Under the pieces are notes generated by a model, which ran no database searches, was not told the origin of the DNA, and worked only from the letters and a program-made list of their open reading frames with translations. A stretch of 64,000 nucleotides of DNA from Isoetes taiwanensis (taxonomy: Eukaryota; Streptophyta; Lycopodiopsida; Isoetales; Isoetaceae): positions 1,301,927 to 1,365,926 of the forward strand of contig JAJEKV010000001.1 of NCBI GenBank assembly GCA_021234155.1. Direction: 5' to 3'. Positions 12,259-40,734 of this stretch are shown here, piece after piece; the first letter of the stretch is position 1, and every line of letters begins with the position of its first letter. A program made the translations under genes and the position numbers.

Positions 12259-12275
12259 CTTGTTTTAAACTGGGC

Positions 12276-13580: not shown

Positions 13581-13589
13581 CCAAATAAT

Positions 13590-15355: not shown

Positions 15356-17425
15356 GAAGAGGAAAGGGAAAAGGAAAAGGGAGGAGAAAATGGCAAAAGT
15401 GAAAGGCAAAAGGCAAACGGTAAAAGGGAAAGAAAGAAAGGAAAAAAAAAAAGGAAAGCCGTAAAAGAGCACCTAAAAAAAAGGGAAAAGGAAAATAAAG
15501 AAAAAAAGGACACTATAAAAAGGAGAGATGGAAAGGATGAGGATAGGAGTAAAAGGGAAAAGGGGATACGGAAAAGGGTAGAGAAAAGGGAAGGGAAAAG
15601 GAAAAGGGAAAAGGAAAGAAAAGGGAAAGGGAAAGGAAAAGGTAAAAAGAAAGGGGAGGAGGAGGGAGTGAAAAGGAACACGGGAAAGGGAAGAGTAAAA
15701 AGATGGGGAAAGGAGGAAAAAAATGGAGGAGATAAAGGCAAAGTGAAAGGCAAAAAAGCACGGATAAAAAGGGAAAAGGAAATAGAAAATAGCACAAAAA
15801 AAAAAGAGAAAGGAAAAGTAAGAGAGAAAAATAAAGGAAAAAAATGACACTATGAAAAGGAGAAGAGGGAAAGGGTGAGGACAGGAGTAAAAGGGAAGGG
15901 AAAAAGGGGATTAGGAAAAGGGTAGAGAAAAGGGAAGGGAAAAGGAAAAGGAAAAAGGAAAGGAAAATGGAAAGGGAAAAAGGGGAGAGGAGGAGAGAGC
16001 GAAAAGGACAAGTGGGAAAAGGGGAGAAAAAAAAGGTGGGAAAAGGAGAAAAAGGAAGGGGAAAAAGGACACTAAAAAAAAAAAAAAAAGGAAAGAGAAA
16101 AGGGAGGAGAGAAGGGATGAAAGGGTAAAAAGGAAAAGCGAGGGGAAGGGCAAAAGGAAAAAAGGGCATGGGGAAAAGAGGAAGAGAAAAAGAAGGAGAG
16201 AAGCGAAAAAAAAAGGAAGAGAAAGGAGGGAGGAAAGGGGAAAGGGAAAAAGAAAAAGAACAAATGAGGGAGGAAAAGGGAAAGAAAAGACTACGAGAAA
16301 AGGGAAGAGGGAAAGGGTGGGCAAAGGGAAGGAATAAATGGCACTATAAAAAGGGGAAGAGAAATAAAGGGAAGGGAAAAAAAGACATGAGAAAAAAAAA
16401 AAAAAAGGAAAAAAAAGAAAAAAAAGGAGGCTAAGAGAGAAAATGGAAGGGAAAAAAGGGCAACAGAAAAAAGCGGAATAGAGAAAGGGTCGGGAGGAGG
16501 AGGAAAAGGAAGGAAAAAAGGCCATTGGTAAAGGGGAAGGGGGAAAGCGAAGCAAAGGGGATGGAATGGGGGAGAAAAGGAAAATAAAATAAGGTAAAAT
16601 AAAAAAAGGGAATGTGAAAAAGGGAGGGATAGAAAAAATGGAAAAGCAAGGAGGTTGGAAATGGAAAAGGCAAACGTGAAAAAGTGGAAGCAAATAGAAA
16701 AGGCAAAAAGGGAAAACGGGAGGTAAAATGGAAAATAGAAAGGGGAGGTGAATAAAAGGAAGAGCAAAATAGAAAAAAGAAAAGGAGAAGGAAAAAAGGA
16801 AAAAAAGGAGAGGGAGGAGGAAAAAGGTGAAGAAAGGGGAAAAGAGGAGGAGAAAAAAAAAGAGCATGAAAAAAATAAAAGAGAAAAGGGACATGGCAAA
16901 AAAGGGAAGAGGGAAAGGGGTGAGGGAAAGAAAACAAGGAAAATGGACATGGAAAAGGGAAAGGGGAAAGAGGGAAAGAAAAAAAAGGGGGGAAAAAGGA
17001 AGGGAAAAGGGACACTAGAAAAAGGGAAGAAAGGGGCAAAAGAGGAAAAGGGAAGGGAAAAAGGGGAAAAAAGAAAAGGTGGGGAGAAGGAAAGGGAAAA
17101 GGGAAAGGAAAGGGGAAAGCAAAAAGGAAAAACATAGAAAGAAGGGCACGAGGAAAAGGGGAAGAGGGAAATGGAAAAAGAGAGGGGGGAAAGGGCACAA
17201 GGAAAGGGAAAAAAGGCAACCACAAATTGGAGAAAAGGGAAGGGAAAAATAGAAAAGGAAAAATGGGGAAGACAAAAAAGAGAAAAAGAGGAAATGGAAT
17301 AATGGAAAAAGAAAAAAGTAAATTGAAAAAATGTAAAAAGGGAAAAGGGGCAAGGGGAAAATAGGAAAAAAAAAATAGTAGACAAAGGCAAAATGAACAA
17401 GGAAAACGGAAAAGATAAGGGAAAG
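15356..17425 (+). repeat. 2-kb polypurine tract (degenerate minisatellite)
   Basis: For about 2,070 bases the plus strand is almost only A and G, built from GGGAAAAGG-like words. Sparse C/T punctuation recurs as GGCAC or GACACTATAAAAAGG (near 15508, 15846, 16068, 16338 and 17009), which suggests an old tandem unit with variable length. One block of about 338 bases is repeated with the order GACACTATAAAAAGG, GAGGAnAGGAGTAAAAGGG, GGGTAGAGAAAAGGG. Long open frames here (Lys/Glu/Arg/Gly or Phe/Leu/Ser/Pro) are consequences of composition and not genes. Such tracts can form intramolecular triplexes. Confidence 0.9.
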
Positions 17426-18141: not shown

Positions 18142-18740
18142 TGTTTGGGGTCTGGGTTCGGGAACTCCTGCAAGACAACCCTCTGTGAGGACCCTTGGAT
18201 CAAACAGGAGAATCCGGGAGCTATGTCACGCGGGATTTGCAAAAAGAACAAAGGAAAAAGAGAAAAGAGAGAACAAAAGAGAACAAAAGAGAACAATAAG
18301 ATCACAATAATGAGAACAACTCCTTGATGTCAATGAAGGTACATGAGCTCTCGCAATCGAGAGAAAACAGAAGTGAGACAAGACTCAAAACTCATCTAAC
18401 CCATGAAGGCTAGCTCTACTCATATATATAGTACAATGGCCTTTGGCCCAATATAGACACTCTGACTGATTTCGGTGCCGACTCCTGGAAGGAGGCCCCG
18501 ACGGCGGTGGAATCTTTGGCGGTGCCTCTTTAGGTGCCTAAAGTCACCGACGACGACGGGCGGTGACGGCCCGTCAGTTGTCTGAGCGCCTCCTCTTGGT
18601 CCCGGCCACGGCTTTGATTGGCGTGGTGCGTGGCGGCTTGGTCTTCAAGGGGCCTTGGACGCCCGAAAGGCGGGGTCCTTGGCCTTGACTTGGTCCGTCA
18701 GATGTATGAATAGTCATGTACGGACGCATTGGACTAAACA
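18142..18740 (-). repeat. 3' LTR of Ty3/gypsy element
   Basis: A 599-bp terminal repeat with TGTTT...AAACA ends, aligned over its length to 40135-40734. Shared landmarks include GAGAATCCGGGAGCTATGTC and CTCATATATATAGTACAATG. Differences between the LTRs are concentrated in CG-rich words. Confidence 0.93.
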
Positions 18741-20578
18741 CCCCACCAAATGACACCGAGTGAAGAAAAGGAGGAAGTGTTTACGATGGCATGGGAACGG
18801 CAGTTTGAAAGTGATCCTCACGGGGAATGAGGGCGGGCACCATTGTGGTAATTTGCCTATGAGATCCCCTGGCGTGTTTGAAGAGCTTCCTGAGTGTTGA
18901 GCCCAAGGGCGTGGATCTCGGCATCAATGAGGAACTCGAGCGGACCATGTCTTCGGCAGCATGGGCCTCGGAACGAAACTTGCATTCCATGAGAAAGGGT
19001 CTGAAGGCACCGACGCTGTATTCGATTGCAATAAAAGATAGGCCGATTTAACGAGCTTATGAGGAGGGGGCACTTGAGAGCAGTAAAAGCCCCGCTGATT
19101 GAGCGGAATCAAGGGATCGTGAGGTGGCGGCATTCTCCAAAAAGCATCAAGGCCATGGACGGATGAGCGGCGTTTGCCAACCTCGCTCATTGGCAATATA
19201 TATCCAATTTTCGTGTGATCCAAGGTGGCACCATTTTCCCAATTGCAGCGTCGAACAAAACGTGATTCCATGAGGAGATCCGTCGAGATCTGAGGAGGAA
19301 TCCGCAACGCGGGCTTCCGGGACCTTTGTCCAAAGCGGAAGATGCCACGAGGTGAGAAGGTGGGGGTGGAGGGACACCTAATGAAGCATATGGAGAGGGA
19401 GTCGTGGTGCGGGCGGGTCTTGAAAGCCAACTCTCCAGTCTCGAACAAGGTCTTGATCAAGAGCACGCGACCACCGGTCCCAACTGGGCGAGAGCGGAGT
19501 AGAGGACCGGAGGATTATTTACAACCCGCGGGTATCGTCTTTCTTGTGGCGTGCACGCAGTTGATTGTAGCCTCAGTCTTTGCCGCATATAAACTTATCC
19601 TGGCCGAAGATCCTCGGGATCGTAAACACGTCCGCACTTATTCAAGTGTTTACGCTTGCCACAAGGGTAAGTGATGAGCAAGCTTCGGGCATGTACTCGG
19701 CCAAAGTGTGAAAGCGATCATGATCCTTTAAATAAGGGTTGTTATCCATTAACAACCAGTGAGCGTCAGGGTTGCCAGGAAAATTTCGATGTGGCTCACC
19801 TCTGAATTTGTGCTGTGTATGAGCCAGATAGAAGTCATGAAAGATATACACCATCAATTTGAACAACTTCGGAAGATGAACAAATCGGGGATCTTCACGG
19901 TGGATTAGGTCGAAGACTAAGAGGGCCTGAGTAAGCCTTTGTCTTCGACCCGGAAAGGTCCGACCAAATCTCGAAAATCCTCAGCGCATACCGGGCATTA
20001 AACGGCGTCATTTGCGTACCACTTCAGAAGAAAGAGATGGCGTCGAGAAACCACATAATCCAGGTGACTGGAAGGAGGAGCAAAATCCATAGGAATGAGG
20101 AGAGCTATATTAATGTAACCCTCGTTTATGTTGTGCATCTTCATTGATTGCACCGTACTGGAGTTGATGGTCGAGGTTACGGATCTGATTTTCCCTTTTC
20201 AAAGGGAGGCGGGGAGTGATCCACAGAACCTTTATGAGAGAGCGTGCCATGTGAAAGGATTGCCCAGAGTATGGATCCAGCGTGGCAATCAAGCGTCATC
20301 AATGATTGTGCATACGCACTACATGGTTGGGATGAAGAGAAGTGACCGATTGGTCGGGCCGTGGTCGATTGACCTTGGAAAGTGGGAGCTTTCGTTGCGC
20401 TCCTTGAGTTCTTGGGCGTGGTATGGTAATTGCGAAGGCACCGTTAATGCGGCGTGTTAAGATACGCAAAGGGCTTTATCCTTGTAAACCAAGCACTTGA
20501 TCCTTGGCTTTGTTACGCTCCAGCGGTTCTTGAATTGTGGATTATGGCGAGCACATTGATGATAAGTAGGCTGATCGA

Positions 20579-21157
20579 TTATGTAATGCGGGCTTGAGAT
20601 CTTCGGACCCGTAAAAGAGCCTCGTGCTTTTTGAAGTTTGTCTTGAGAGATTGAACTTGCATGGTGGCAGCTTGAAGATCCCTGTGAACAGCTTCCGATG
20701 CCTCCAAGTACGCTTGAACTCCATTCATGAAAGTGTCTTGGGAGTCTTGTAACTTGAGGACAATGGCGTGAACATCCTGTTGATATTGATAGAGGGCCTG
20801 CCTGGGAGGAAGAGGTGCAGGGCCCTGTTGTTGCCGTGTCTGTGACGTCTGAGAGACATGATGAGAAGTGGAGGGCATGGATTCTGTGGAGGAAGAAGAG
20901 ACAGTAACATGCGTGGTGTTGTGTGGAATATTACCAGGAGAAGGTGGGCATGAAGTTTTAGCCTGTTGGTTGTGAGGAAGGGAATGAAAGGATTGATGAG
21001 TGGATGCATGAAAAGTGGAAGGTGACCCAGGTAGAGGAAGGTAATGACGGATGAGGGCTTGAAGATGGGCACCCACTGAGGCTTCAAAGCCAGAAGAAGG
21101 GGCGGCCCTAATACTGTCAACTTCATGAAGAAGTCTAAGAACATCATTTGTGGCCAA
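20579..21157 (-). other. Additional ORF of the Ty3/gypsy element
   Basis: A 192-codon frame lies between integrase and 3' LTR in the same orientation as pol. It has a Ser/Thr/His/Pro-rich middle and a C-terminal part rich in leucine and glutamine heptads (LKLQDSQDTFMNGVQAYLEA). No enzyme motif is present. Extra ORFs at this place are known in Tat-group elements; function unknown. Confidence 0.5.
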
Positions 21158-22139
21158 TCAATATGGTGAGGAGAGTGGATGGCCATGATGACAACATTAT
21201 AGAACTGTTTATTGATATGGGTGTTCTTGATGGAATACCCAAGCAATTTTCGGGCCACGTAAACTTTACAAAAGTGTCGTGGGACTTGGCAATATTTGTG
21301 AGGCGCATGCATGTTGTTTTGATAAGGAGGCGGCGTTTACATCGTTAGTGACATCCGGGTCTGTAAGAGCCCAAGATAAAAAGGTCTTTTAAGAGGAATG
21401 TGAAATACCTCGTAAATCGGTGCTGAGTAAAGCAAAATGGTGGTGCCATCGGTAGGGTGGCGTATCCTTAGGGCTGTTGATTATGTGGCGACAAAGCGGA
21501 TTCAATTGCTTTCGGATTGGGTGTGGAGGTCTGTTGAGAAATTCATAAAAAGCCCATGGCGTTCAGCGACTTCCGCACTTCGGACCATGGCGGCGCCAGC
21601 GAAAAGGTGGGTGTTGAGAAGGTCGCGGACTCAAAAGTGTCGGATCCCTTGGAGCGAAGCTTGAAGTTGAGAAATTTGGGTGAAGAAGCCATGGCTTAAG
21701 CGTCGGAAAAGGAACATGAAGATCTATCTGGAGAAGTCTGGTTGGAGAGCGAAGATGAAAGCGAAGAGAGGCGAAAAGGTTTTAGGGCACACAAGTGATG
21801 GCAAAGAGGCGTGATGAGGGAAGCAAAGCAACCCTTGATGATGGTGGCGATAGATGCAAAGGAGGCGATTGAGAGGCAAAATGTTGGCTAAGTCCCCAAG
21901 CGGTTAAGGGAGAAGCAATGAATGGTGGAGATGAGACGTAAAAGGAACGATCGGATGTGGCTAAGGCGAAGGTACACATATTAATGTCGCGACGCGCGAA
22001 AAAAGAAGGAATGTCATTTAATCTTTGGCAACTCGAAGTGGGATATCATAAAAACGAAAGTGTCAGAAGGTACCATGGCTAGATATGCGGCGGGAGAAAT
22101 GATTCCCCATTTAGAAACGGCCTTGCATTGCAACTACGT

Positions 22140-22496
22140 CGTCGACTTTTCTGATTGGTCCACGTCGACAGGAGTCCCGTCGGTTGGGCTATATAAGACG
22201 AGCAGTGGGCAAAGCTGAGACACCCTTTGGCGACCATGAGTATGGCAGCAGCTGGTTTGAACGAGAACTGCATGATGCCTTCAAATTGCCAGGAATGGAT
22301 CACCTGTAAGATGAACTGTCTGGATCTCTGGAAATGCCACAAGCGTAGCATCCCTATGGATGGCTGGTGCAGTGGGATGGCTGAGCATCCCGACCCTCTG
22401 ACCAACCCTATGGAGGTGGTGGTGCATCTGCGCTGGGATCAGGAGCAGAACTACTACCATATCCTCCGCATAACCTCTGCTCCAAACCCGGAGTAG
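22140..22496 (+). other. Antisense promoter-like site and small Cys-rich ORF in the Ty3/gypsy 3' part
   Basis: On the strand opposite to pol, GGGCTATATAAGACG (about 22186-22200) looks like a TATA box. About 30 bases later begins a short leader, followed by an 89-codon frame (MSMAAAGLNENCMMPS..., stop at 22496) with six cysteines. Antisense ORFs in the 3' region are known in some Tat-lineage elements such as Grande. Assigning this ORF to that class is inference. Confidence 0.4.
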
Positions 22497-25146
22497 AGGA
22501 ATTTTTAATGTAGGATTTTGTATAGAGGGCTCTGCCCATTTTGTAAATAGAGCTCTGCTCATAGCGGAAGTAAGTGAGCAAGGCTCATATTTTGTAATTT
22601 GCCTCTACTAATATAAATATGCCGCTTTTAGTCACTATCTGTGGTGTCGGAACTTTGTGGAGCATCATGTGTAGAACTGTCTGTAGCTTCTGTATGAAAT
22701 TGTTTTAGGCGAAAGCCATTAACGAGTAGGTAATGGAGTGCCATCTAACTTTCGACCCAGCTTGAAAACTTGGGTTGAACAACTTGAATAATTTGATAAG
22801 GACCAAGCCACGAACTTTAACTTGCAGGAAACTTTTGTAACGAGAATCATAAAGAAAACCAAATCACCTTCTTTGAATTTTTTGTCTTAAGGCGTTTGTC
22901 ATGCAAGGATTTACGCAAGCTGTTGACCATGAAGAACACGAATGTAAGCATCTCTCAGAAGTTCATCTAACTTGTTCCAATTGATAAACCCGTTCCTTGA
23001 GTGCAACTTGGTGGATTATGTCTTTGTAGCAAGTTGGAAAGCGAGAGAGTCGGAAGAATATATTCAAAGGGCATGAGAGCTTCTTGACCATAAACCAATT
23101 TGAAAGGAGTGTGGCCGGTAGCAATTTTGAAACTGGTGTTGTAAGCCCAAAGAACAGTAGGCAACTTGTCTTGCCAATCTGTTCGAGAAGCATCACAAAT
23201 TTTCTTGAGAACAGTGAGGAGTGTTTTGTTGGTACTTTCAGCCAAACCATTCCCCTGAGGATAGTAAGGTGTACTCTTCCTGTGTCGTATTTGAAGATAA
23301 TCCGTCGGCTCCTTGATGGTATGATTGACAAAATGCACGCCACGATCACTAACAAGTTCAGGTGGGGACATCCAAAACGCGTGATGATGTGCGTGGTAGA
23401 GAACCTTTGGCGGTCTTGGCGGCGGTGTTGTGCGGAAGTGCACAAGCTTCCGCCCATTTTGTAGCATGTCGGTGATGACCAGAATGTAGTGAACACGGTG
23501 TGCGTAGCCGGTCGGGTCCATGGGCCCCACAAAGTCCATTCCCCATTTCTTTGAAGGGAAGTGGCGTGGCGGCCACCGCATCAAGGGAAGAGCGTCACGG
23601 GCCGTGGGCTTTCCCACACGCTGACAGACGTCACACGTGCGAGCATAAGCATGGGCATCTTTGAAGAGCGTGGGCCAAAAATATCCTGCCAAAAGAATTT
23701 TGCATGCCGTGGCGTCACCACTAAAATGACCACCACCAAGCCCGTCATGGGCTTGTCGAACAATGTCAGGCACCTCATGAGGGAGGACACAACGACGGAG
23801 GACCATGTCTTTGCCGCATTTGTATAAGTAGCCTGCAACCATGGTATAGTCACGGACCTCTCCCGGAAACCCGATGGTGGGCGGAGCGGTTTGTCCACGA
23901 GAGAGTGTCGGATCTTCTGGAGGAAGAGCACCAGTGAGAAGATATTGTTGAAAGTTGTGAAACCAATGGGGCGTGGCCGTGACCAGGAACAATTGAGCAT
24001 CTGGAAAGGCATTAGAAACACCCGTGGAGGAATCATCTGTGTGGATGCGTGAAAGATAATCAGGTACCACATGAGACTTGCCTGCCTTATGAACAATTTC
24101 GAAGGGCGCGAATTCTTGCAGAAGAAGGACCCAATGAGCAATTCTACCCGTGGGCGTGGCTTTGTTGATTAAATAAAGAAGAGCTTGATGATCAACAAAG
24201 AACTTGATCTGGCTGCCCAACAAATAATGACGGAAACGTTGGACACACCCGTTCCGTGGCAGAGTAGTTGCGCTCAGCAGGATTGAGTTTCCGGCTGGCA
24301 TAACGGATTGGTTTGTCCGTGTGCTCATCATATGCCTGAGAAAGAACAGCACCAATGGCAAAAGCAGAGACATCAACATGAACGTGAAAAGGCTTCTCCC
24401 ATTGAGGAGGAAGAAGTACCGGGGCCTGAGTAAGCAACAGCTTCAACCACGGCGGCTTCCCGCTTGGGGATTCCAAGCCCAAGTGGATTCATCACCCGCG
24501 AGTTTATGAATGGGATCAGCTATAGCTGCAAGTCCAGGAATGAAGGTGGAATAGTAATTAACCTTACCCAGGAAGCAACGTGTCTCTTTGATATTCGATG
24601 GTGCTTGAGCCTTCAGTACACAACTGATTTTAGCAGGATCCGTGGTGATTCCATCTTTACTGACCACATGACCCAAAAGAATGCCTGAGGTGACGCAGAA
24701 AGTGCATTTCTCAGGATTGAGACTAATGCCGATTCATCACATTTTTTGAAAGACTAGCTCTAACTTCTCCAAGTGATCATCCATGGAGTCGTAGGCGAAA
24801 AAGTCATCTTGAAAGATCCGGAGAAAAGGTTGATCCTTCATATAGTCTTGAAAAGACGAGAGAGCATGATCTTCTTGAAAGGTTGAAGGAGAGTTTGATA
24901 ACCCAAAAGGGACCACCTTGTAGGCAAAAAGTGCTTTACCCGGTGGTGAAGGTAGTTTTGAGTTGATCTTCTTTCTTGATAGAAATTTGATTGTACCGGA
25001 GAAACCATCCATGAAAGAGTATCATCTCATGACCAAAGAACTTCTTCAAGAACCTGGTTAGGTGAAGGGAAGTGGAAAGTGATCATTTCCGTAGCTTGAT
25101 TGAGTTTTCGTAGTCCACGCAAAGCGCCGGATCTTACCATTGTGTT

Positions 25147-25557
25147 CGGTGTAGGTTAAGCACGTTAATGCGTTACGTTTTCATACTTAACGCACGTACC
25201 CATACATTCTATCGTAATTCATTTTGTGCATCAAATAAAAAAAAAAAAATTTGGTTTGTTGTTTACGCATTACGCGTGCCATGCGTGCTATATGAAAATG
25301 CGATGCAATTATAAATGCGTACTTTATAGGTACGCGGTACAAAGTACTTTTCAAAAAATAAAAAAATAATTTTTTTTAGGTTAACGCGTCGTCTGCGACG
25401 ATATTTTATGGCATTGTATGCGTGCCGTCTGGCGTACTTTAAACAACTACTTTTTGACGACGTTTATGCATCGCGAACCGTAAATCGTTACCCGTCGCGT
25501 GCGTTGCATACGTCGGCATTAACCGCGGTGCGGTATGGAAGATCTGATTACTAAGCG
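25147..25557. mobile_element. 411-bp insertion with 8-bp target duplication (hAT-like MITE)
   Basis: It interrupts the RT region of the Ty3/gypsy element. ATTGTGTT occurs immediately before (25139-25146) and after (25558-25565), an 8-bp target duplication as made by hAT transposases. The insert is unlike its surroundings: rich in GCGTAC, TTACGC and other CG words in an A/T background, with A- and T-runs. Terminal inverted repeats are weak (GGTTAA near both ends in opposite orientation). It has no ORF. Confidence 0.7.
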
Positions 25558-26261
25558 ATTGTGTTTGAGAACAATGACAATGGGGCTCACCCATTGAGTG
25601 TTTGACCTCATAAATGGGGCCGGCTGAGCCCCAAGAGTTTGTCAATTTAGGCCTTGACACGGTCCGCGGTAATTTGGGTTGAGCCTATAGTGTCGTTCTA
25701 GATTGGCGGCATCGAGGTTTGGTAGGAATGGTGAGTTCCCCAACTCTTTTTTTGATACCTCGAAAGGTCTTTGTAGCTCCAAGCAAAATATGTTTGAACT
25801 TCTTGAGCAGGCGTCCACGGGCGCGTGCTTTATAAGTGGATGGAAGATTAGCGACTAAAAGCCGATTTGGTTGATTGTTACCAATGTCCACGATGTCCAC
25901 TTCGGAGTTTGAATATGAGGAACAACCTCCGGTGTCCCGAACACGATGAGCGGGGAGGTTGAAGCATGACAGAGGAGCAAAAACATTTTGAGTGGTGAAG
26001 AAAAGAGGCTGGCGAGTGTCATCAAGCAAGGGTTGCTTCATGGCGACATGAACATCGGCAGTCTCAAAGAAGAGGTTGTGTCTGAAAAATGATCAAGACA
26101 TTGCGATTCTGAGGAAGCGGTGTAAGGGTCCGTGGAGAGAGCCCACCTGTACACGTCCGATCCCAATCGTCATGTCACCCCAAGGATCGCATGACACTGG
26201 GTAGGATGAGAGGGCGGGACCAGCAGGTGGAGCTTGAACATGATAAATATTTTGTGCTTAC

Positions 26262-26288
26262 GGGTGTAAATTTGATATTGGTACCCAA
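26262..26288. repeat. Left terminal inverted repeat
   Basis: 27 bases, exact reverse complement of 37480-37506. An internal GGTACC lies near its inner end. Confidence 0.92.
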
Positions 26289-26665
26289 TTTTGGCGAAAG
26301 CACCAAGCACTTGAAGCACCTAAAAATTCGAGTAGCCATCTAAAATTCGAGTAGCCATAATACATAGAATCTCGCGGTGCCCTCGGTTCCCGCGCCTTTT
26401 GCTTTTGGCTTTCCCCTTTTTCGATCCCAAATTTTGAATCCCCTGTTTCGAAAGCTCCTCCATCGAAAAATCAATTTTCCTTTTCATCCGCCGATCCAAT
26501 CGTCTCAAAGATGGCCGAGGTTGATTCTGAGCGGTGAATTCATAGACATTCACGGTTTCCATAGAGAGCTGAATTCAGCCATCTTTGAGACGAAATGGCT
26601 TGAACAAAATGTAACAGATCTCGCGCCAATGGTTTTCGGTTTGGCAAGAAGCACCAAACAATAAG

Positions 26666-27560
26666 ATGAAACTTCTTATGGTCCAGCCTCGGCTCAAGGA
26701 AAAATTGAATACATTGTTGAAGAAGCTATATCAAACAGAAAACATTCCCAACAATGAAGTAAGAAAGCAGGTAGCTTATGCTTTTGCTTGGGAGAATTGT
26801 GACTCGGCTGCTGCAAATCCTGAAAATCATAAGATCAATTGGGCGTCTTTTGGAGCTCAAATTATGAAGTCTGAAGTGTTGAGTCAAAGGGGAGGAAGTT
26901 GCAAGTTCAAGCAAAGGTACTCCTACCCAAAACTCTAAATTAGACCAGTCTGCTTTGATAGAGAATTTTGAGTTGATCAAATTAAATGCAAACAAACTTG
27001 AGAATGAGAGGGCAGAAATGTTTGAAGAGGTGCAGGCAATTGATGTCAATTTAGCTGCTGAAGCTAAATCCAATTCAAAATTTACTGCTGAGTTAGAAGA
27101 GAGCAGGACAAAGGTTGAGAATTTGAAGATTTCAATTTCTGAATTGGATGATGAAAATGCAAGTTTCAGAAAAGATCTTGAGATGTCTCTCACTATGGAG
27201 ATATATTATCAGCAGAGACTCGAGAAGCTTATCACATCTGCGGATCGGGGAAACAAGTATTTTGAGGAAGCAAAAGTTAGAAGATGAGATAAAAGACAAG
27301 GATGAAAGAATTTCAGGAATTGAGAGGGTACCTTAACCATTTGATGTAACTGAAGCATGTGACTTCCACACTTTTCGCATCAACACTATAAGGAGAACAC
27401 TACCCGGGGCTTTGCAATTTTGGTACTTGCCGCTTGTGTGGCCTAACTTTCCATGACAGGTACAAATTGTCATTGACCTTATTTTGTGATCATGAATACC
27501 ATCTAGCATGTGCAGCTTTTATTGAAGGAAGGTAAGTGCAAGGTATGTGATGTGTCCATT
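26666..27560 (+). pseudogene. Coiled-coil protein with a RING-H2-like zinc finger, cargo of the DNA transposon
   Basis: Starting at MKLLMVQPRLKEKL, the frames read an alpha-helical part (VRKQVAYAFAWENCDSAAA). A long coiled coil follows, with KLENERAEMFEEVQAI and LEESRTKVENLKISISELDD (about 26955-27285). Then at 27428 come CRLC, 15 residues, CDHEYHLAC and, one frame over, CKVC (27537-27548). The spacing C-x2-C-x15-C-x-H-x2-H-x2-C-x(about 10)-C-x2-C fits the RING-H2 consensus, the class found in many E3 ubiquitin ligases. Frame changes are needed near 26935, near 27275 and between the sixth and seventh ligands. The last change falls at AAG|GTAAGTG, which could instead be a splice donor. A host origin is inferred. 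Confidence 0.45.
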
Positions 27561-27736
27561 CATCCATTTATATATTGAATGGGCATGACGTGAGAATTGC
27601 CTAAAGTAATAGATGTGCCGGTGACAAAGCTATTGTAGAAGATCTGACATGTAGATGAGAGTGCTCTAAATCAACATGGTAATAACTGCTAAGACTGTTA
27701 GTGAAGCGGAATCTGTGAAATGCACAACAATTTTTA

Positions 27737-28289
27737 ATGGACCAATTAATGATGAGTCCTAGGAAGATCTTGAGTCCTAGGAAGATCTTGAGGAGAAAAG
27801 CCAGTCGAAAAGATAATTATCAAGAAGCTTCCATTGCAAGTCCCGAGGATAAGGAACCTGTCGACAAGGATCACGGTGACAATGAGGAGGTAGAGAGTAC
27901 ACTGTTAGAGAGAAGAGGGCAGCAACCAAGAGGAAAAGTGCAAAATGGGAAATGGGAAACAAGAAGAAAGCAAAGAACACGTAATCGCTAAGAAAGCAAG
28001 TAAGAAAGGAAAGAATATGAATCGGGTTTGTGAAGAGGAAATACAATTTCAGGAGGAGGGCACTTGATAAGGGCTTGGAAAAGGCTGATCTGAGCGTGTA
28101 AACTTGAATCAAGAAGCCTGCGAGTGCAAGCAAACTCGCCACAGGCCACCAAGAACTAAAGAATTGGTAGATGCACTAATTGAAGAGGATGAAGAAATAT
28201 TTGAAGATGCTCAAAATGACATGACATCTCGTGGCTTCGACAAGACTACAGTAACAAAAGCTGAGAGATTGAAAGCAATGATAGAGTAA
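27737..28289 (+). pseudogene. Charged low-complexity frames downstream of the RING-like finger
   Basis: Lys/Arg/Glu-rich frames with a perfect 18-bp tandem duplication (GAGTCCTAGGAAGATCTT twice, about 27764-27799), giving a repeated SPRKIL. A later frame (28104-28289) reads KELVDALIEEDEEIFEDAQ. These may link the finger and the phosphatase in one cargo gene. No family recognised. Confidence 0.3.
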
Positions 28290-28429
28290 TACGAGAAGGG
28301 CAATGATAATGTGTCTCTTAAGACTTTCTATTAGCTAATGTTTTAATGCTCGAGGTACACTTGTATTGGAAGAAGAAATTGAACATGTTGAGAAATTGAA
28401 CACTCAATTGAATCTTGTACCATACAAGG

Positions 28430-29101
28430 TTAATATAATGGAATTTTGAAGTTGTGTTTTATTTAATAAGTGTCCTTTATGTTTACTTTATGTTTTTTGT
28501 GATAGGGTGTACGGGGGACAGTCCTCTATGAAGAGGAAACCTGCTCATATTAGATGTTAATGGTGTTCTAGTTAAGACTTATCATAGGGACTGATCCGGT
28601 GCATGTGGACACTAGCTTTGTACATCACAAAACAAGCGAGAAAACTAGTTGTGGTAAGGCCTAATGCAGGAGAATTCTGAAAAAAGCAATGACTCATTTT
28701 GATATAGCCATTTGGTCTTCCATGAACCAAAGCACAATGTGAATGAAGTTCTAGATGTGATAGCACCAATCATTAGGACGAGACTTTGTATTCATATGGG
28801 ATCAGTCTAAGTGCTTGGAGATGCCATTTAGATGGCCAATTCAGTCTTCAAAACCATTGTACATGAAGCCTCTGTCAAGAGTTGTGATCGACTACCCACA
28901 ATATGATGGCTGCTGCATATTGTTGGATGATAGCATTCACAAAACTTTTGCTTCTCCACCATTCACATCTCTCTTGATACCATCCTTCACACTTGATCCA
29001 GATGATACTATGTTGGACAAATACATGCGGTGCTTGAAAAATTCGGAACCACGAGGTGCTTTTATGTCTTTGAAGTCTTTCAAACACTTGACTGAATTCT
29101 G
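28430..29101 (+). pseudogene. FCP1/NIF-type (HAD) phosphatase, cargo of the DNA transposon
   Basis: After a possible intron (AAG|GTTAAT near 28428 to TGTGATAG near 28505) the frames give, in order, LILDVNGVLVKTYH (HAD motif I, in the DxN form common in plant FCP1-like proteins), RKLVVVRPNAGEF then LKKAMTHFDIAIWSS (the RPxxxEFL...IWSS segment), FIWDQSKC, KPLYMKPLSRV, CCILLDDSIHK (the DD motif) and the SPPFTSLLIPSFTLDPDD tail. That full order identifies an FCP1-homology domain, which dephosphorylates proteins such as the RNA polymerase II tail. One C is missing between EF and LKK, and other shifts are needed, so this copy is dead. It lies on the strand opposite to the transposase. Confidence 0.7.
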
Positions 29102-31157
29102 AGAAAAACATAAGCAAATTTTACCTTGATAAGTCATTATCAGAAGGATTGTTGCTGAAGTGCCACCTAAGAAATGCAACCACCTCCTTTGCACATTGCA
29201 ATTTCCTTCCATTATATTTCATCTGTTCCTTTGTTAAAATCCTCTTGATGACAGCTCCAGCACCATCATGCTCACCTTTTCCATGTGAGCTAGCAAAAAA
29301 TTTCGGATAATATCCTTTTCAAGTCGATTGTGAAACCTGCCAAGGAAGTAAAATGGTCTTGAAGACTTAAACTGTCTTGAGAACAACCATCACTCCAAAA
29401 ACATGTTTTTTATAGTTAACTCAATAGATTGTAGCCAATGCATGATTTTGGAGACAATCTTTGAACAAACTCGGTATCATGAGTTTTGTCATCATGATGT
29501 AGAAATGAGTCTCCTTCACAATTCCTTTCAAGGAGTCTTGCCTTTTCTCTTTTGCAACATTTTTTTTTTTTTGGACTCTTTATTATCTTCTTCCTTCTTT
29601 TGTCTTTCTTACGCCTCGATCTTCTCATTCTCCGTAAGTGATGTGCACGAGGAATAGAAACTTGGTCAGTATGCCAATGGCATGATTGAGCTTCTTGCTG
29701 AATTTTGAATCCATAATTCTCTGCAAAATCTATTACATGAGACACAATAGTGTCTTCTTGAATTGATGCCAAACATTGCTTGAATTGTTTGGCTTACCAA
29801 TGTCTTTCGGTAGTTATGTGGAACAAAAGGTCTTCAAAGTTTTAGTGGCATGTTCATGGAACTCAAAAGGAGAACCTGATTTGTATGCCAATCGGTAACC
29901 TTTGCGAGGTTTCTTGCCGGACACGGTTTTTGTTACGAACTTCTTGCGCAAAAGTGAACGACTTTAAAGCAGGACCTCTTTGCTTCACTAACATGAAATT
30001 GAGCGAGAATGTAAACTACATTTACCTTTTCAAACACTTTCCAATTAACATCTTGCCTATTATTCTTAACCTTCTCTCACAGGACATGTAGGAAGCCGCC
30101 GACAAACAAATAAATTAGATTAAAGACAATCAAAGCGAGGAAATAGAAAAGGAGCCATTACCTTTTCAAACCACACTTATTACCTGCGTCGCATTAGACA
30201 TGCATGCTTGTACCATTCTTCATTCTCATCCTTTGAAACACAACTGTCTCCAATATTCACTAGTGGATTTGATAGTGTGTTCTTTAGCTAAACATGTTGG
30301 ACTGCGAACCACAAATTACTTACACTTGCAATCTTTTACACCATATGGATCGGTCCTCATTTTATTTATTGCTTGCATGGCAAATTCAAGATGCGAGATG
30401 GTATTGGCGGCCTTGAGGTTTCTCTTTTCTTGAAGCTTCACGATATAGCTTGGTTTCAACCTCTCAAAAGTCTATTTGGGATATCTTCAAATCGGCATGT
30501 TCCTTTTGAAAGCAAGGTAAAAGCAAGCGTGAACAAAAAAGAAAAGAGAATTCAGATCGATAATAATGTCAAAATTACGAAACTAGACAAGCATGTTAAA
30601 AACAAAAAGATTGACTCAAATGCTATCTTTTTGTCAATAAAGTATGATCGAGTAATTCGGACTAAACATTGATTGTGGCAAGCTTGAGCCAGTCTCGTTT
30701 TTCTAGAATTGGGAAACTAGTTCTAGCGAATAGGCATATTAGTAACAAAAAAAAAGAATCAAAAACATACACGGTAACTTCTAGCAAGTGTATTGGATGA
30801 TCAATTCTTTCACCACTTCGGTAACATGTTTTCTAACATGTTTCTTATAGGGTGAAACAGAATATTTTCATCCCAAAACTTTCTTACAGCAGCTATCTCT
30901 TCAGGGGAAAGAGCATCAGATCTCTTCTTCCTTCCATGCATTGACCATGGACCAGCATCAAACTTCGGCACATATTCTTCTTCTAAATGCTTGGGTTCTG
31001 GTTTTCCAGGAATGGAAAGAAGCCTTGAAAATGCACTCCCGATTAATCCCTTTAGCTTGTTGAAAGCGCCATTTGGAGTGTGGACTTCCTAGCTATGAGT
31101 ACATCAGTATTTCTTTGAAATTTTTTGAGCCTGCATAGTTTCCCTAACATTGGAAAT

Positions 31158-31816
31158 TGATGAAATTTAAGTGTTCAACAAAGGTAATTCAACTTCAATT
31201 TATATATTCAGCTAGCAAATGGTATTGTTGAATCTATGACTAGGAAAGTAATAATTACAATCTATCAAAGGAGCCAAGAGATGGTCACTTATCCTTTGAT
31301 ATTAAGTACTTCCTATACCATTGAGTAAATCATAGTCATTAAACAACACTCATCGTGCGAGGGAGATTCTGCGATATTGTTTGTAGCGACTTAGCGAAGA
31401 TATAGCTTGTTCTAAGCAACGCACGGTGTATCACAAATGATCGATTCACATTTTATTTATTCACACTCCTCCGAGCCGGTTATGGCGGTGGATAAGGATC
31501 TCGGATAGAAAGTCATGTAGCCAAGGATCTCCAGATAGAAAGTCGTGTAGCCAAGATTATCCCACAGACGTAAACTTGCAATTCGGCCTTTCCTTCATTT
31601 CATTTATCCCACATGCACATAAGCACGAATCGGCTTATTCTCTAACCATTGAGTTTTAGCAAAACCACTATAGTATTATCAAGCAATTAAACCTAGATTA
31701 CTTGAGATTCCCCCTTAGTCATTTGATCATTATTCACCTTAGGTTAACATCCTCTTGTATCCATTACTCATGATCATGACTGCCATCTATATCATCTGAC
31801 AACTCAATCTCCAACA
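31158..31816 (-). repeat. 3' LTR of the copia element
   Basis: Matches 36166-36823 almost throughout, except for a stretch of about 110 bases (31365-31475). The adjacent CCCCCTTCAG (31819-31828, plus strand) is the polypurine tract on the element strand. Confidence 0.95.
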
Positions 31817-34800
31817 TTCCCCCTTCAGATGATAAATATCTGCTATTGTATTGTACTGCATTTCTCAAGTCTTCAAACCTACTAACTGATAAGGCTTTGG
31901 TGAGAATATCAGCATATTGATCCTTAGTTTTAACATAAGTCAACTGCACTATTTTTTTCTGTACCATATCTCTGACAAAGTGTACTTGCATTTCAATATG
32001 CTTAGACCTTTCATGTAGAATTGGATTTTTCGTCATAGCTATGCAGCTAGTGTTGTCACAGAAAATACGAGTTGGACCTATTTGCTCACATTTTAATTCT
32101 GCTAAGAGTCTTCTTTCCCATACTACCTCCTTTGTTAGCAGAGAAGCTGCATTATATTCTGCCTCAGCACTGGAAAGAGCTATGCTATTTTGTTTCTTGC
32201 ATTTCCATGCCACTGGAGCTCCACCAAGCAATATAACATAGCCAGAAGTAGACTTTCTTTGGTCCAGATCCCCAGCCCAATCAGAATCACAATAAGCTTC
32301 TAATGTGAGATTATTTGTACAATACATAATCCCAACTTTCAATGTTCCTTTTAAATACCTGAGTATTCTCTTGGCTGCTATCCAATGTTCCTTGCCAGGA
32401 TTGTTATTGTACCTGCTTAACAGATTAACTCCAAATGCTATATCAGGTCTGGTGGAATTGGCCACATATGATAAACATCCTATCAGAGACCTGTATGGCA
32501 TTTTTTCCATTTGTTTCTTTTCTTCAAGAGAATTTGGACACATCTGAACTGATATTTTGAGACCTGGTACTATTGGTGTGCTTGCAATATTGCATTCACT
32601 CATAGAAAATTTCTTGAGCATATTAGCAATCTGAGTTTCTTGACTTAAGATCAGCAACTTATTGGTTCTGTCTCTGTACACATCGATACCTAAGAATCTT
32701 TTTAATTCTCCAAGATCTGTCATTTGGAATCTTTTCTTCAAGAGCCATTTGCAATGCTGCAATATTGATGTATTATTTGCAACCATAATATTGTCATCTA
32801 CATACAATCCAATGATACACCAATTTTTATTATCACCAAATCTGTACAAATTTCCATCACATTGTAATTTTTGAAAACCTTGTTCCAGGAGATAACCATC
32901 CATACATCTATACCATTCTCTTGGTGCTTGTTTTAGTCCATACACAGCTTTATTTAACCTCCAAACTTTGCCATTTTCCTCTTCAAAACCAGGTGCAGGC
33001 TTAAGGTAGATTTCCTCTTCTAACTCTGCATTCAAAAATGCTGTACTCACATCCATGTGATGAATTTCAAATCCATAAGCATTTGCAATTGCCAGCAGTA
33101 TTCTCAAGCTGTTAATTTTTACCAAAGGAGAAAAAGTTTCATCAAAATCCATACCTTTTTTCTGTGTAAAGCCTTGTGCTACTAGTCTTGCCTTGAATTT
33201 TTTTAATTTTCCATCTACTCCTTGTTTAATCCTGAAAATCCACTTATTTCCAACCACATTCTTGTTTTCAGGTTTATCTACCACAGTGTAAGTTTTTGTT
33301 CTTTGAAATGCTAGCATTTCTTCTTCCATTGCTTGAGTCCAATTACCTGAATCTTTCCCTTTTACAGCTTCTTCAAAGGTGTGTGGCAGATCATCTGTTT
33401 CTAGCACAAGAATATCAAACAAAGAATTAACTTCAAAGGTGTCATACCTTTTGCTTTTTCCAGTCTCAGTTCTTCCATACATTTCTGTATTCACCTTTGC
33501 TTCATCAGCTAAAATTTGAGCTTCAGTTCTTCTTTTCATTCTTTGTCTCTTTTCTGGAACAATTATTGGCATAGGCTCTACTAATTCTTTATGCTCAGCT
33601 TCAACCTGTTCTTTTTCAATCTCGATTTCTTGTTGACTCTCTGACTCTGTTACAGTATCCTGTGTTTGTTCATGCTCATCATCACTATCACTGTTTTCAA
33701 TTAATTTTCCTTCTTGTGCTGCTTGAGAGGTTTGCTCTCTATTTTCTGCAACAACCGAATCATTAGTGTTAAGATCTATGTCTTTAACTTTTTCATTAAC
33801 ATTTGGAATGGCTCTATAATATCTTTCTTCATCAAATACTACATCTTTGCTGATCAATATTTTTCTGCTCATAGGATCATACAATCTATAGCCTTTTGAG
33901 TTAGGATCATAACCTACTAAATAGGCAATGCAAGCTCGGTCATCAAGTTTTTTTCTCACTTCTTCGGGTACATGAACAAAGGACAAACAACCATAAGATC
34001 TTAAATTTTCATAGCTGGGTATTTTTCCTGACCACAGCATATTTGGTATTGTACCTCTTGTGCTGACTGAAGGTAGCATATTTTGTATATATACTGCAGT
34101 TCTTACAGCCTCATCCCAGAGAAAGTTTGGTAACCCTGAATACTTTAACATTGATCTGACAGCATTCAAAATTGTTCTGTTTTTCCTTTCTGCCACACCA
34201 TTCTGTTGTGGTGAATATCTGCAAGTCAACTGTCTTTTTATACCTCATATTGCACAGAATATTTTAAACTCATCTGACAAATATTCCCCTCCTCTATCAG
34301 ATCTTATGCATTTAATTTTTCTCCCTGTTTCTAACTCAACTTCTGCTGCAAACAATTTTAGTGCATCAAAGGCCTGATCCTTAGTTTTGAGCAGATAACA
34401 TTTTGTTTTTCTACTAAAATCATCTATGAAGGTCATGAAGTACCTATTTTTCTTCAAGCTTGTAACATTAATAGGCCCACACAGATCTGTATGGATTAGA
34501 TCCAATATTCCTTTAGCTCTTTTTGTAGATCTTTTAAAGGACAATCTTGCTTGTTTGCCAAGTTGGCAGCCAGCACATATTTTTTTCTTATCTCCTTCCT
34601 TTGCATTTATATATTTGTGCTTTTCTAGCAATTCTACATTGGCCATATTTGTATGACACAATCTATTGTGCCATATGTCCTTTGTTGGCAGTTCAACAAT
34701 ATTAATGCTTGGATTCTGTTCCTTTTGAAAACCAAACAAATTTCCAACCCTCCTTCCAATAAATCTCAAAATATTATCTTTATATATTTTGCATTGAAGC

Positions 34801-36152
34801 TTTTCAAAAATAACTTTGAAACCAAGGTCAACAAGCTGACATATTGATATTAGATTTCTTACTAGATTTGGAACACACAAAACTTCCTTAAGCAATACAC
34901 TTTTTCCTTGCAGATCAAATATTTCCAAAATTCCAGAATCCTGAATTTCTTGCACTCCACCATCACCAAGTTGAACATGACCCCGGCTTCTTTTGCACTC
35001 ATTTAACAGTTTTAGATCATGTACTACACTCTTTTCTGCTCCTGAATCTAACACAAGGAACTTGTTGTTAAATTTATTCACTCCTTGAGTAACATTAAGT
35101 AATTTTGTTACCTCAACTGTATCATCCAAGTTTTCTTCTTCAACCATGGCATCTTCAACCAAATTTATACTGGATGCTCCCTTGGATCTCCCTCGACCTC
35201 TTGAGCTTCCAAGACCTTTGCCACGACCTCTTCCTCTACCACTGATGCCCTTAGGGCTTGGACAGTCAACTGCAAAATGCCCTTTTCCATCACAGTTAAA
35301 ACATAATTTAAAACCTTTACCTGCATTTGGGCATTCAGATTTTAAATGACCATATTGATTGCAAGTGAAGCAAGGACCTATTTTGTCTCCCCTTCCAAAA
35401 CTCGAGCTTGCTCCCTTTCTTTGTTTTCCTGTATACAACACCTCAGCAGATTTATCATCATCATCTTGCACACCTTTTGTTTGTTCAAACTCAGTCCGAA
35501 TCATTCTTAAGGCGTGTTCCTTTGAAGTTGCAATATTCCTTATCAGTGTTGCTAGTCAGTGTGTTGTGACACCGCCCTAGACAAAGCTAAGATTTGATCT
35601 TGATCACTCTCGTAATATTGCCTGCACCTTCCAAATCTGCTACAATTGAGTCAAACTTTTCCAGAAAATCTGTCAAATTATCCTTCTCAAACAATTTTAA
35701 CTTCCTCAATTGTTTCTCTAACAAGTCAATTTGTGAAGAGCTTTTTACCTCATATTGACTTACCAAGTAACGCCACATTTCATCCGGTTTTCATTCCCTC
35801 GGGTCTTAACTTAAGAGCGTTACCTACTTTGCTCAAGATGATTGCTTGTGCCTCCTTAACCTTTCTTTGCATCAGCCATCACTAAGCATTCGGTCTTTGA
35901 AGAGCTCTTAGCAATCGTGGATCCTGCAAGGCCTCGGATGCACTTGTACTAACCGGGGACTAGAACCTCAGAACTTGTTGCGGTTACAGCCCGCCCTCCT
36001 CCTTCGATCGAGGTGCCACAAGTTTTCAAACTCAAAATGAGACTTAATACCATCCTTCCATCCACGAAACCCTCAGATCTCCTTTTAAAGACCTCAATCT
36101 GATTCAACAAATTAGCTGCAAATCTAGTAGACATTTTCAACAACAACCTGAT

Positions 36153-36164
36153 GCTCTGATACCA
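36153..36164 (-). promoter_or_regulatory. tRNA-iMet primer-binding site of the copia element
   Basis: TGGTATCAGAGC on the minus strand, one base from the 5' LTR. It is the standard complement to the initiator methionine tRNA 3' end used by most plant copia elements. Confidence 0.93.
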
Positions 36165-36165
36165 A

Positions 36166-36823
36166 TGATGAAATTTAAGTGTTCAACAAAGGTAATTCAA
36201 CTTCAATTTATATATTCAGCTAGCAAATGGTATTGTTGAATCTATGACTAGGAAAGTAATAATTACAATCTATCAAAGGAGCCAAGAGATGGTCACTTAT
36301 CCTTTGATATTAAGTACTTCCTATACCATTGAGTAAATCATAGTCATTAAACAACACCATGTGGAAAGGTGGAGATTGCGATATTGTCAGTAGAGGCTTC
36401 GCAAAGATATAGCTTGTTCTAAGCACTGCACTGTATCACACAATGATACGATTCACATTTTATTTATTCACACTCCTCCGACGGTTATGGCAGTGGATAA
36501 GGATCTCCAGATAGAAAGTCATGTAGCCAAGGATCTCCAGATAGAAAGTCGTGTAGCCAAGATTATCCCACAGACGTAAACTTGCAATTCGGCCTTTCCT
36601 TCATTTCATTTATCCCACATGCACATAAGCACGAATCGGCTTATTCTCTAACCATTGAGTTTTAGCAAAACCACTATAGTATTATCAAGCAATTAAACCT
36701 AGATTACTTGAGATTCCCCCTTAGTCATTTGATCATTATTCACCTTAGGTTAACATCCTCTTGTATCCATTACTCATGATCATGACTGCCATCTATATCA
36801 TCTGACAACTCAATCTCCAACGA
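36166..36823 (-). repeat. 5' LTR of the copia element
   Basis: Partner of 31158-31816. Its end lies two bases short of the GAAAT target duplication by strict homology. Confidence 0.95.
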
Positions 36824-37479
36824 GAAATCCGTCTTTCATCACATTTAACTCCTTTGGATCCGCTAGAGTCACATGTGGTAAGTGTTTGATTCTTTTTTAT
36901 AAAACTTCGAGCTACTAATCCTTTAGAATTATCATGGCACAATTCCTTACAATATGGAAAAAGGAATTCTCCAACTCTTCGAAGAAAGTTCTGTTGTCTT
37001 CTATGACTCAAAAGAACGGCTCTTTTTTTTTTATGAGCCAATATTCTCCTTCTCCAATTCTCGAATTCTCTTCACGGCTTCTCTTTTCTCATGGCATCTA
37101 GCTCAAGTAAATTCTCCGTTTTAGCGGCTTCAACTGTTTCAGGAGAACTTGCCATCGAATTGATATGAAAAGGAATTGCAATTGCAATTTGTCGAAATTG
37201 CAATTGACAAGATTAGTGTAAGCTTGTTCTTCATAGAAATGAAGAATTCTTGCAAGAATCAATCAATTTCCGCCAAACAAGAAATCTCGGAAGAAATTTC
37301 CCAAACATTTGGTATGATCACGAATTCCAAATTGGCCCAAGAAATCAATCCATGTCATCGATCCCGGCTTCCTCGGAGGATGATTGCTATTTCAGGAATA
37401 ACTACCTCAAAATCATTATACTAACGAAGATCGAATAAAAGCACTTTCGCACTTAAAGCAAGTGTAAGGACGGTGCTTT

Positions 37480-37506
37480 TTGGGTACCAATATCAAATTT
37501 ACACCC
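37480..37506. repeat. Right terminal inverted repeat
   Basis: 27 bases, exact reverse complement of 26262-26288. It is preceded by short GCACTT-type subterminal repeats (37436-37475). Confidence 0.92.
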
Positions 37507-40134
37507 TTCTTCGTGAGGTGCTATTAGGAGATTGAAGGTTCAAGCATTCTCAACAGAGATCAATTTGCGGTTCTAAATCCATGGTTGCATTGAGATGTCC
37601 ATCCGTAATGAGAAGTTGATCAGGGGCCCGGTAATGAATACTACTTGGGCGGAGAAAAGGTCTACCAACCAGCATTTCATAATGCGGGGATCTTCTCAGC
37701 TTTTCAAACTCCAAATTCCAAGGGAATTTGAGATCACCAATCTTGATATGGAGAAGAGGAGTGACACCTGGGGCGATGATATGGCCATTTGCCAACTTGA
37801 TGTCATAGGGAGCTTCGGTATAATTGTTTGATGCCCAACTGCTTTTGAGACTTATCGGTAATAAGATTGACGGCACTATCACCATCTATTTGAACATGAT
37901 TGATGTGCCTGATTGCCCACCGTGGCATGCACCGTGGGTGTGGAGGTGCTTAGCGGCTCAATCGAGAACCGTGGGAAGAATGGCCCGATCTTTGAGAGCG
38001 GCCCGTGAGTTTCAAAATGGTGGCCGTGCTCAAAAAGGAATCTTGATCTTGGCAAGTTCTCCTTGAAGTTCAAAGGAACATGAGAAAAGGAGTCTGGAGG
38101 ATCTAGTGGGAGCGGAGTCGTGGTAAAAAGCGAAACTTCTTTGAGAAGCTCTACCTCAATGACAATATTTGGATCTGGTGAGAGCGGGTCTTTGGTAGAT
38201 GACGGCATTTCGCCCGATGTTCTTGAGCTCAGTGGTGGCATGAACATTTGCCAAATTGTCGCGACCTTCCGCACCGCATGAGTTTAAGAATGCTTTGTGC
38301 GACTTTAGGCATGACGTGAGGCATGAGTTTGTCAAGATCAGTATGAAATGAACTTTTTATCATCTTCATGAGGGATCTGTCTCTCCAATAAAGGGTGGAT
38401 GCGTGTCGTGAGGATGATTGTCAAAGAGGCGTGAAACCCGTGTCGGCGATGAGACTAGACCAAGCAATTTGGATTGCTGACTGGAGGGTTCTTGAGCACG
38501 ATAAATCTCCTCTTGAGCTTGTTGATCCATAGGATTGGAGATAGATGCAACTTCTTCGAGGTCATTGTTGTTGAGGGCGGTCGTGGAGGCTTCCTCAAAA
38601 GCGGGGCCGGGGGCCTTGTTTACCATTGGCCACCCACCCAGTTGATAAGCCCGTGAGGCGTCTTGGCAGGCTGATTGGAGCCCGGAAGTTGGACTTGAAC
38701 TTGAGGAAGTTGAGGACCGCCCGTGGTGGTGGTGTGACCCCATTCATGACAATGATAACATTGAGCCTTGGAAGGACCAAAGGGAGGGCGGGAGCCTTGT
38801 CCCCTTGATGGCGAGATTGCTGTGGGTTGATACTGCTGAGGTGGTTGAGTTTGATATTGCTGAGGCGAATATGACTGTTGTTGTTGAGGCGTGGTCTGAA
38901 CTTGAAAAACCATTTTATTCCTGAAGGGTGTAGGATGAGAACGAGTGCATTCTTCCATTGCGTGATTGCACATATTGCACCTTTTACAATGAGGAGGTCC
39001 ATTGGAGGAGTTGCATTCATTTGCCAAATAATACGATATTTGCAAATATGACACCGAATCTGTGGCGTTGAGGATTTGTTTCTTGGCCGGATCGCGATTC
39101 GAGGAACCATGCGGGGGAATGAAAGGAAGTTCGAGAGCAACACCTCGAGAGGAAACATTGACCGAGTGGTTGACCAATTCAATCGCTGCCTCGAGAGACT
39201 TTGGACAGCGGTGATACGTCATCGAGGCGAATAGCGGGGAGGAACCTTCGCGAGAAACGGGCGAGCGGATCACGGCTTTGCGTGGGGTACCTGGAGGTTT
39301 TCGATGAGAATGTGAAGGCGGTCGGCAAAATCACGCCGGAGACTGCGGGATTATTTTTCACATCATTTAGTTGCTTGAGTAGTAATTGATCATCGTCCGT
39401 GGTGCCATAATGAGACAGGAATGAGACAGGTTTGCCTTTAGTGTTGCCAAAAGTTGGATAAGTCAGCTTCAAATTATGAGTGGGAGATGAAGCCGGGGAA
39501 CTAGCATATTTTAGAGGTGGATTAGGTGGAGGATATGTAGAAGCATAGAGAGGTGGAACAACCGAGAGCATGGGGGGTAGGGACCGAAAAACCCGGTGGT
39601 TCGGAGGAAAGTCGCGCTCAGGGTGGGGGAGGACCATGAGAACCCTTCATTAGGCTTGAGATCAGTAAGTTGGTAAACAGGAAGTGCATGCTGAAAGGAT
39701 GGAGAATGCGAAAATTCATGAACGTGGGAAGGGCCAAAGGACGCTTATGTAGCCCATCCAATGAGGAGGTGAAGAAGGTTGTGACGGTTACCGAGGAGTG
39801 TGGGCGAAGGGATATGGTTTAGGTGCACGTGAGTCCGGGAAATAGTGAGGTGGGCTGAAGGGGGTATGTTGTGGAGATTGAGGTTGAGAACAATGCCGAC
39901 ACACAAGGGGAGACCCTGGTCGAGAATGAGCACGAGGGGTAGGAGGTGCCGACTGAGCTCTGGAGCGGAGACGACCACCCTCAATGTCATAAGCGGTATC
40001 ATACATATTCCGAAGCCTCCGGCGTTGATGGCGCTCGGTCGAGGCGCCCTTTGGCAAAGAAGTTCGTCGGGGAGTGAAACCCGAGCCGACATGATGGAAA
40101 AAAGGAAAGATCGGACAAACAAGCCCGGTGGCGG

Positions 40135-40734
40135 TGTTTGGGTCACGGGTTCGAGAACTCAAGGCGACCCTCTTTGAGAACCCTTGGATCAAACGGGGAG
40201 AATCCGGGAGCTATGTCACGGGATTTGCAAAAGAAAAAAGAACAAAAAGAAAAAAGAGAGAACAAAAGAGAACAATAAGATCACAATAATGAGAACAACT
40301 CCTTGATGTCAATGAAGGTACATGAGCTCTCATAATCGAGAGAAAATGAAGTGAGACAAGACTTAAAACTCATCTAACCCATGAAGGCTAGCTCTACTCA
40401 TATATATAGTACAATGGCCTTTGGCCCAATATAGACACTCGACTGGTTTAGGTTGCCGACTCACGGAAGGAGGCGATTCTTGAGGAATCTTGGCGAAGCC
40501 TCTTTAGGTGCCTAAAGTCACGCCTTGGCGACTTGACCCGGTGTCGGGCGGTGGCGGCCCATCACTTGTCCGCCCCTCCTCTTGGTCCTTGGTCCGCGGG
40601 CTTTGCCTGCGCGTGGTGGTGGCGGCTTGTTGGTCTTCTGCGGGGCCTTGGACGACTGAGCAACTGGGTCCTTGGCCTTGACTTGGTCCGTCGTATGTAT
40701 GAATAGTCCTGTACCTGGACGTACAGGACTAACA
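40135..40734 (-). repeat. 5' LTR of Ty3/gypsy element
   Basis: A 600-bp partner of 18142-18740. The first bases of the internal region next to it did not match a primer-binding site I recognise. Confidence 0.93.

Follow-up and report, generated by a model that had tools for sequence, protein, structure and literature searches.

Which kind of mobile element would carry, opposite transposase-like reading frames, segments resembling a RING-H2 finger and an FCP1-type phosphatase, and would such segments be working parts of the element or captured passengers? The question is raised by an insertion within a 64,000-nucleotide stretch of the Isoetes taiwanensis genome (Lycopodiopsida; GenBank assembly GCA_021234155.1, contig JAJEKV010000001.1, positions 1,301,927 to 1,365,926 of the forward strand; hereafter the window, numbered from its first letter). 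Here we describe this insertion as a real, dead, nested plant DNA transposon with terminal inverted repeats (TIRs) and an unusual FCP1-like second gene. On balance, we lean towards reading it as what is left of a plant TIR transposon with two genes, of which the plus-strand one would have encoded an accessory protein.

The borders of the insertion (Table 1) are two 27-bp sequences that are 100% complementary, as in cut-and-paste DNA transposons, and, with up to 3 mismatches allowed, a search of the window returns no further match to them (0 expected). A preliminary description had placed exact inverted ends at precisely these positions, inside a Ty3/gypsy retrotransposon, and both claims are borne out. 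The insert lies between a protease-like stretch and the reverse transcriptase of the retrotransposon, breaking it upstream of the RVT_1 region. The long terminal repeats (LTRs) of the outer element (18142–18737 and 40135–40732) are 83% identical. To the left of the insert, Pfam matches its zinc-binding integrase domain and its RNase H within 22967–24379 and RVT_1 in a mechanical frame of 24380–26261 (E 5.9e-10); three other gypsy frames give no Pfam match, and the protease-like stretch on the right flank, where Pfam finds 0 families, is recognized by eye only. At the right border the GC content changes in a clean step from 0.374 to 0.462.

Table 1 Features of the nested insertion and its surroundings (window positions)
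Feature	Position	Strand	Basis
Outer Ty3/gypsy element	18142..40732	-	LTRs and Pfam domains
Left 27-bp terminal inverted repeat	26262..26288	+	Complementarity and window search
Putative second gene of the element	26662..29102	+	Extent taken from open frames, which are broken
Coiled-coil-like open frame, 134 residues	26883..27284	+	Open frame; sub-threshold matches only
RING-H2-like finger, C-x2-C-x15-C-x-H-x2-H-x2-C	27428..27511	+	6 of 8 ligands, in one frame
FCP1/NIF-like (HAD) domain; DVNG at 28553–28564	~28535..29099	+	PF03031
C-terminal part of transposase-like gene (FAENY, WSDG, HGKGEHDGAG)	29121..31157	-	Open frames; motif style
Nested, younger Ty1/copia, separate from the DNA transposon	31158..36823	-	LTRs, domains, primer-binding site, GAAAT
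Likely N-terminal part of transposase-like gene	36824..37212	-	One internal stop; open across the joined copia flanks, as is a second frame
Right 27-bp terminal inverted repeat	37480..37506	-	Complementarity and window search

The transposon had been described as 11.2 kb long; half of that span proves to be a nested Ty1/copia retrotransposon, leaving a DNA element of about 5.57 kb once the copia is removed and one GAAAT is counted as duplication. The intruder has the hallmarks of its class: LTRs (31158–31815 and 36166–36821, 96% identical), an adjoining ATTGGTATCAGAGC that we take to be the primer-binding site, an integrase preceding the reverse transcriptase and a 5-bp duplication, with Pfam matches to RVT_2 (3.9e-77), the integrase core, a zinc knuckle and gag-pre-integrase. 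The duplicated GAAAT flanks it at 31153–31157 and 36824–36828, with 1 or 2 extra bases between the right LTR end and the repeat. When the flanks are joined, two of the three minus-strand frames stay open across the junction, one of them being the frame that the transposase-like pieces use to either side of it, which holds one stop upstream and two downstream; this fits, and does not prove, an insertion of the copia within the transposase-like gene. Nesting and LTR identity give the order gypsy, then DNA element, then copia. All 26 differences between the copia LTRs fall within 160 of the 653 alignment columns, the remainder being identical, and 0 of 10,000 random placements are confined to so short a stretch, pointing to local sequence errors or gene conversion as the likely source. 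Errors, and not decay, may therefore account for some of the places at which the DNA element loses its reading frames.

On the minus strand, the transposase-like gene seems to span from about 37212 to 29121 over several frames. The strings DFAENY, WSDG and HGKGEHDGAG appear in that order (FAENY at 29727–29713, SDG at 29394–29386, HGKGEHDGAG at 29285–29256), and their order and style resemble those of a DDE transposase, similar strings occurring in some transposase-like proteins of plants and animals. The preliminary description had named these motifs as a transposase; the strings are indeed present, but they are split over frames and a transposase identity is matched by no library. Because FAENY and SDG lie in a different frame from HGKG, the gene is not merely interrupted but also broken. 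No mudrA-type transposase domain was detected by Pfam among 11 single pieces of the gene or in a 494-residue composite (31157–29124), pieces so short and broken that they could hide a weak match; the part at 36824–37212 was scanned as single pieces, outside the composite. The HGKG piece alone finds nothing convincing in the PDB (best E 0.5, a tyrosine phosphatase). Among viral contigs, four protein queries, the exact 27-bp end and a degenerate HGKG..DGAGA pattern retrieved no relative, and the seven stretches that the pattern found in bacterial and archaeal genomes, all under bacterial titles, were taken as chance. That the minus-strand gene encodes a transposase is suggested by its motifs only.

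The opposing strand carries the clearest homology. A PF03031 (FCP1/NIF) match is obtained in one of the six mechanical frames of 28500–29120, with stops written as X, at 2e-5 and 24.8 bits, above the gathering cut-off of 21.8 bits, and in none of the other five. In a hand-joined composite with X at the breaks the match rises to 6.2e-15 and 55.7 bits over profile positions 2–153 of 160; the mechanical figure is the fairer one, since joining by hand favours a match. Against solved structures, the composite finds UBLCP1 first (3shq, E 0.0026), with a weak second at 0.49, and PHROGs gives no match for this part. As judged from these profiles, we consider the FCP1 homology firm. FCP1/NIF phosphatases use a catalytic DxD motif. 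The signature here reads LDVNGVLV (GAT at 28553), retaining the first Asp of DxDG and replacing the second with Asn, a change of a kind that abolishes activity in human SCP1. The earlier claim of an FCP1-like phosphatase stands for the domain, and the present copy lacks the second catalytic Asp; with DVNG known from one copy, a family state and a mutation are alike possible.

Upstream lies the finger. RING-H2 fingers have C3H2C3 ligands at characteristic spacings. When the window is translated in six frames, the pattern C-x2-C-x(9-39)-C-x(1-3)-H-x(2-3)-H-x2-C turns up a single time, at the listed finger; none of 100 random windows and none of 300 random elements generated at matching neighbour-base frequencies contains it. 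Six ligands are present in a single frame, and the final two are uncertain, a downstream CKVC falling in another frame, past a donor-like GTAAGT; the preliminary description of a coiled-coil/RING-H2-like open frame thus holds for the plus-strand frames and for these six ligands, and less surely for the last pair. The coiled-coil-like frame gives sub-threshold matches only, the best being a Rab11-FIP3-like domain (E 0.008).

Two host-like genes were first proposed for the plus strand, one with the RING-H2-like and one with the FCP1-like segment. Both segments are there, but they may be one gene. Between them lie charged open frames (28089–28286 and 28339–28446) separated by a frame break; a GT..AG stretch at 28429–28505 connects the frame ending in KLNTQLNLVPYK (to 28428) with GVRGTVLYEE in phase 0, and the FCP1 domain begins one frame break further on. 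We prefer the reading that the plus strand holds one intron-containing gene, as this phase-preserving junction suggests. The two genes would then lie tail to tail, their last open frames ending about 18 bp apart (29102 on the plus strand, 29121 on the minus strand) and with about 0.4 kb left over at one end of the element and 0.3 kb at the other. A layout in which tail-to-tail genes fill the element seems more in keeping with a second gene that is resident than with stray cargo.

An intact copy of the two-gene transposon would have been a cut-and-paste element of about 5.57 kb with convergent transposase-like (minus) and accessory (plus) genes, the transposase binding the 27-bp ends, excising the element and reinserting it. 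The ligands of FCP1-type domains are phosphorylated tails, that of RNA polymerase II being one example. For this reason the accessory protein, with its coiled-coil-like, RING-H2-like and FCP1-like parts, would most likely act on host transcription or silencing proteins, and the DVNG form may bind rather than cleave. The element entered the gypsy retrotransposon, and the copia later interrupted it.

Several results weigh against this reconstruction, which as a whole rests on one broken copy. No target-site duplication of 2–12 bp is found at the 27-bp ends at offsets of 0–3, the full matches being TT and CTT only, each offset from an end; decay or sequence error may mask it. The left composition step is unclean because 24500–25499, outside the element, has a GC content of 0.39–0.42, close to that within it (0.36–0.41), with 0.47–0.48 at 25500–26499. 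None of the 11 minus-strand pieces reaches the Pfam cut-off (best E 0.023); the 494-residue composite likewise has nothing above it (best 0.19), matches no NCBIfam or PHROGs family and finds nothing convincing among solved structures, where ribosomal protein L4 comes first at E 0.66. On the plus strand, Pfam RING models stay below cut-off (zf-RING_2 at E 0.047, best E 0.021), as does PF03031 in one open piece (E 0.0022, 18.1 bits); a search of the PDB with the single FCP1 piece, taken to E 1, comes back empty, and its AlphaFold2 model is uninformative (predicted local distance difference test score, pLDDT, 33). The one-gene structure and its introns were read by eye from frame-broken coding regions. 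Because the target-site duplication was not found and the transposase is not recognized, we place the element in no superfamily; Sola, Dada, Academ, Kolobok and MULE were considered as candidate names (a Repbase paper, PMC4455052, lists superfamily names).

A broken gene known from a single copy is also what would be expected had a TIR transposon, in the manner of MULEs and CACTA elements, once taken up a copy of an FCP1-like gene of the host, or pieces from one or two of its genes, which then decayed without function. Plant class II elements commonly transduplicate fragments of host genes (PMC2528002, PMC13317346). Yet decay does not single out the cargo, because the transposase-like gene is broken too, and the plus-strand gene occupies one arm of the element, with its tail towards that of the transposase-like gene, as expected of a resident gene; we regard such a one-off capture as rather doubtful. 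The ends themselves might instead stem from two separate insertions or from another repeat, with the genes between them brought together by nested insertion or rearrangement. The missing target-site duplication speaks for this, as does a region that is a nest of elements in which a large nested insert had escaped earlier notice. However, the ends are identical over 27 bp and face each other, the right one coincides with the composition step, and self-comparison inside the element (matches of at least 50 bp) lists the copia LTR pair only, so that we judge this chance assembly quite improbable.

A bolder version of the two-gene transposon would place it in an undescribed TIR lineage, with a transposase that the profile libraries used here do not recognize and, as a regular second gene, a RING-H2/FCP1-like protein serving as an anti-silencing device against the host transcription or silencing machinery. 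The polymerase II tail might be its target and DVNG would then mark a binder, in a parallel of independent origin to VANC and KIU of Vandal MULEs. This version seems to us unlikely.

Two-gene transposons are familiar from MuDR, in which the convergent mudrA and mudrB lie between TIRs of about 200 bp, with 9-bp duplications. The present element likewise seems to have two convergent genes between terminal inverted repeats; in contrast, its ends are 27 bp, and neither a 9-bp duplication nor a MULE domain match was found. To our knowledge, plant transposons that encode anti-silencing proteins are few. The nearest described case is the ULP1 domain of the KAONASHI (KI) MULEs, a high-copy family in which a ULP1 protease domain and the transposase gene point in opposite directions (PMC2528002). 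A 2026 review (PMC13317346) has KIU and VANC genes countering silencing, and counts VANC and its ULP1-bearing relatives as anti-silencing proteins of plant transposons. The KI-MULEs and the present element are both plant DNA transposons with a host-type enzyme domain opposite the transposase or transposase-like gene; here, however, the domains are FCP1-like and RING-H2-like instead of ULP1, the TIRs are perfect over 27 bp whereas KI-MULEs are non-TIR, and a MULE transposase match was not found. Other DNA transposons combine their transposase with an additional enzyme or enzymatic domain, namely KolobokP (a His-Me finger nuclease), some Dada elements (a DnaQ-like exonuclease) and AcademH and AcademX (helicase/nuclease), as set out in PMC9587614, PMC3706591 and PMC10045372; there the enzymes act on DNA, whereas FCP1-type domains act on phosphoproteins. 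UBLCP1, the best solved relative of the composite, and the FCP1/SCP-type phosphatases share the PF03031 domain but differ in having DxDG for DVNG and in not being transposon-borne beside a RING-like finger.

Further features were recorded in the window. In the left arm of the DNA element, a 19-nt inverted pair (26500–26593) is 95% complementary with 56 nt between its halves. The subterminal string AAGCAC occurs three times in the left 200 bp, twice in the right 200 bp and 52 times in the window, as raw counts. Rfam and tRNA scans of the window gave nothing. A long interspersed nuclear element (LINE)-like element occupies 777–4107 on the minus strand, with a 797-residue frame (1717–4107) containing an endonuclease domain (PF03372, 2.5e-08) and a frame at 777–1313 that looks LINE-related and matches no Pfam family. 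Direct repeats pair 12274–13570 with 50163–51454 (91%) and 13587–14226 with 62616–63261 (96%), and may represent either fragments of genes that were duplicated or an outer element; the first pair has a B3 domain match that is weak and stays under the cut-off (E 0.018), which, like the look of the elements, hints at a land-plant host. The plus strand is very purine-rich over some 2 kb (15364–17406), with many irregular repeats; an inverted repeat at 51734–51926 has 94-nt arms, 81% complementary and 5 nt apart; and a 223-residue open frame at 60764–61432 weakly resembles domain 3 of RNA polymerase Rpb1, short of the threshold (E 0.0061).

In the open-licence literature we found no description of an FCP1-like domain in a transposon and nothing that links HGKG to a transposase; the main text of the 2026 review of plant gene capture contains neither 'FCP1' nor 'phosphatase' (PMC13317346). 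If the Isoetes element made a one-off capture, it would add a further case of a known process. If, instead, its family regularly encodes the FCP1-like domain, the transcription machinery would be implicated as a direct target.

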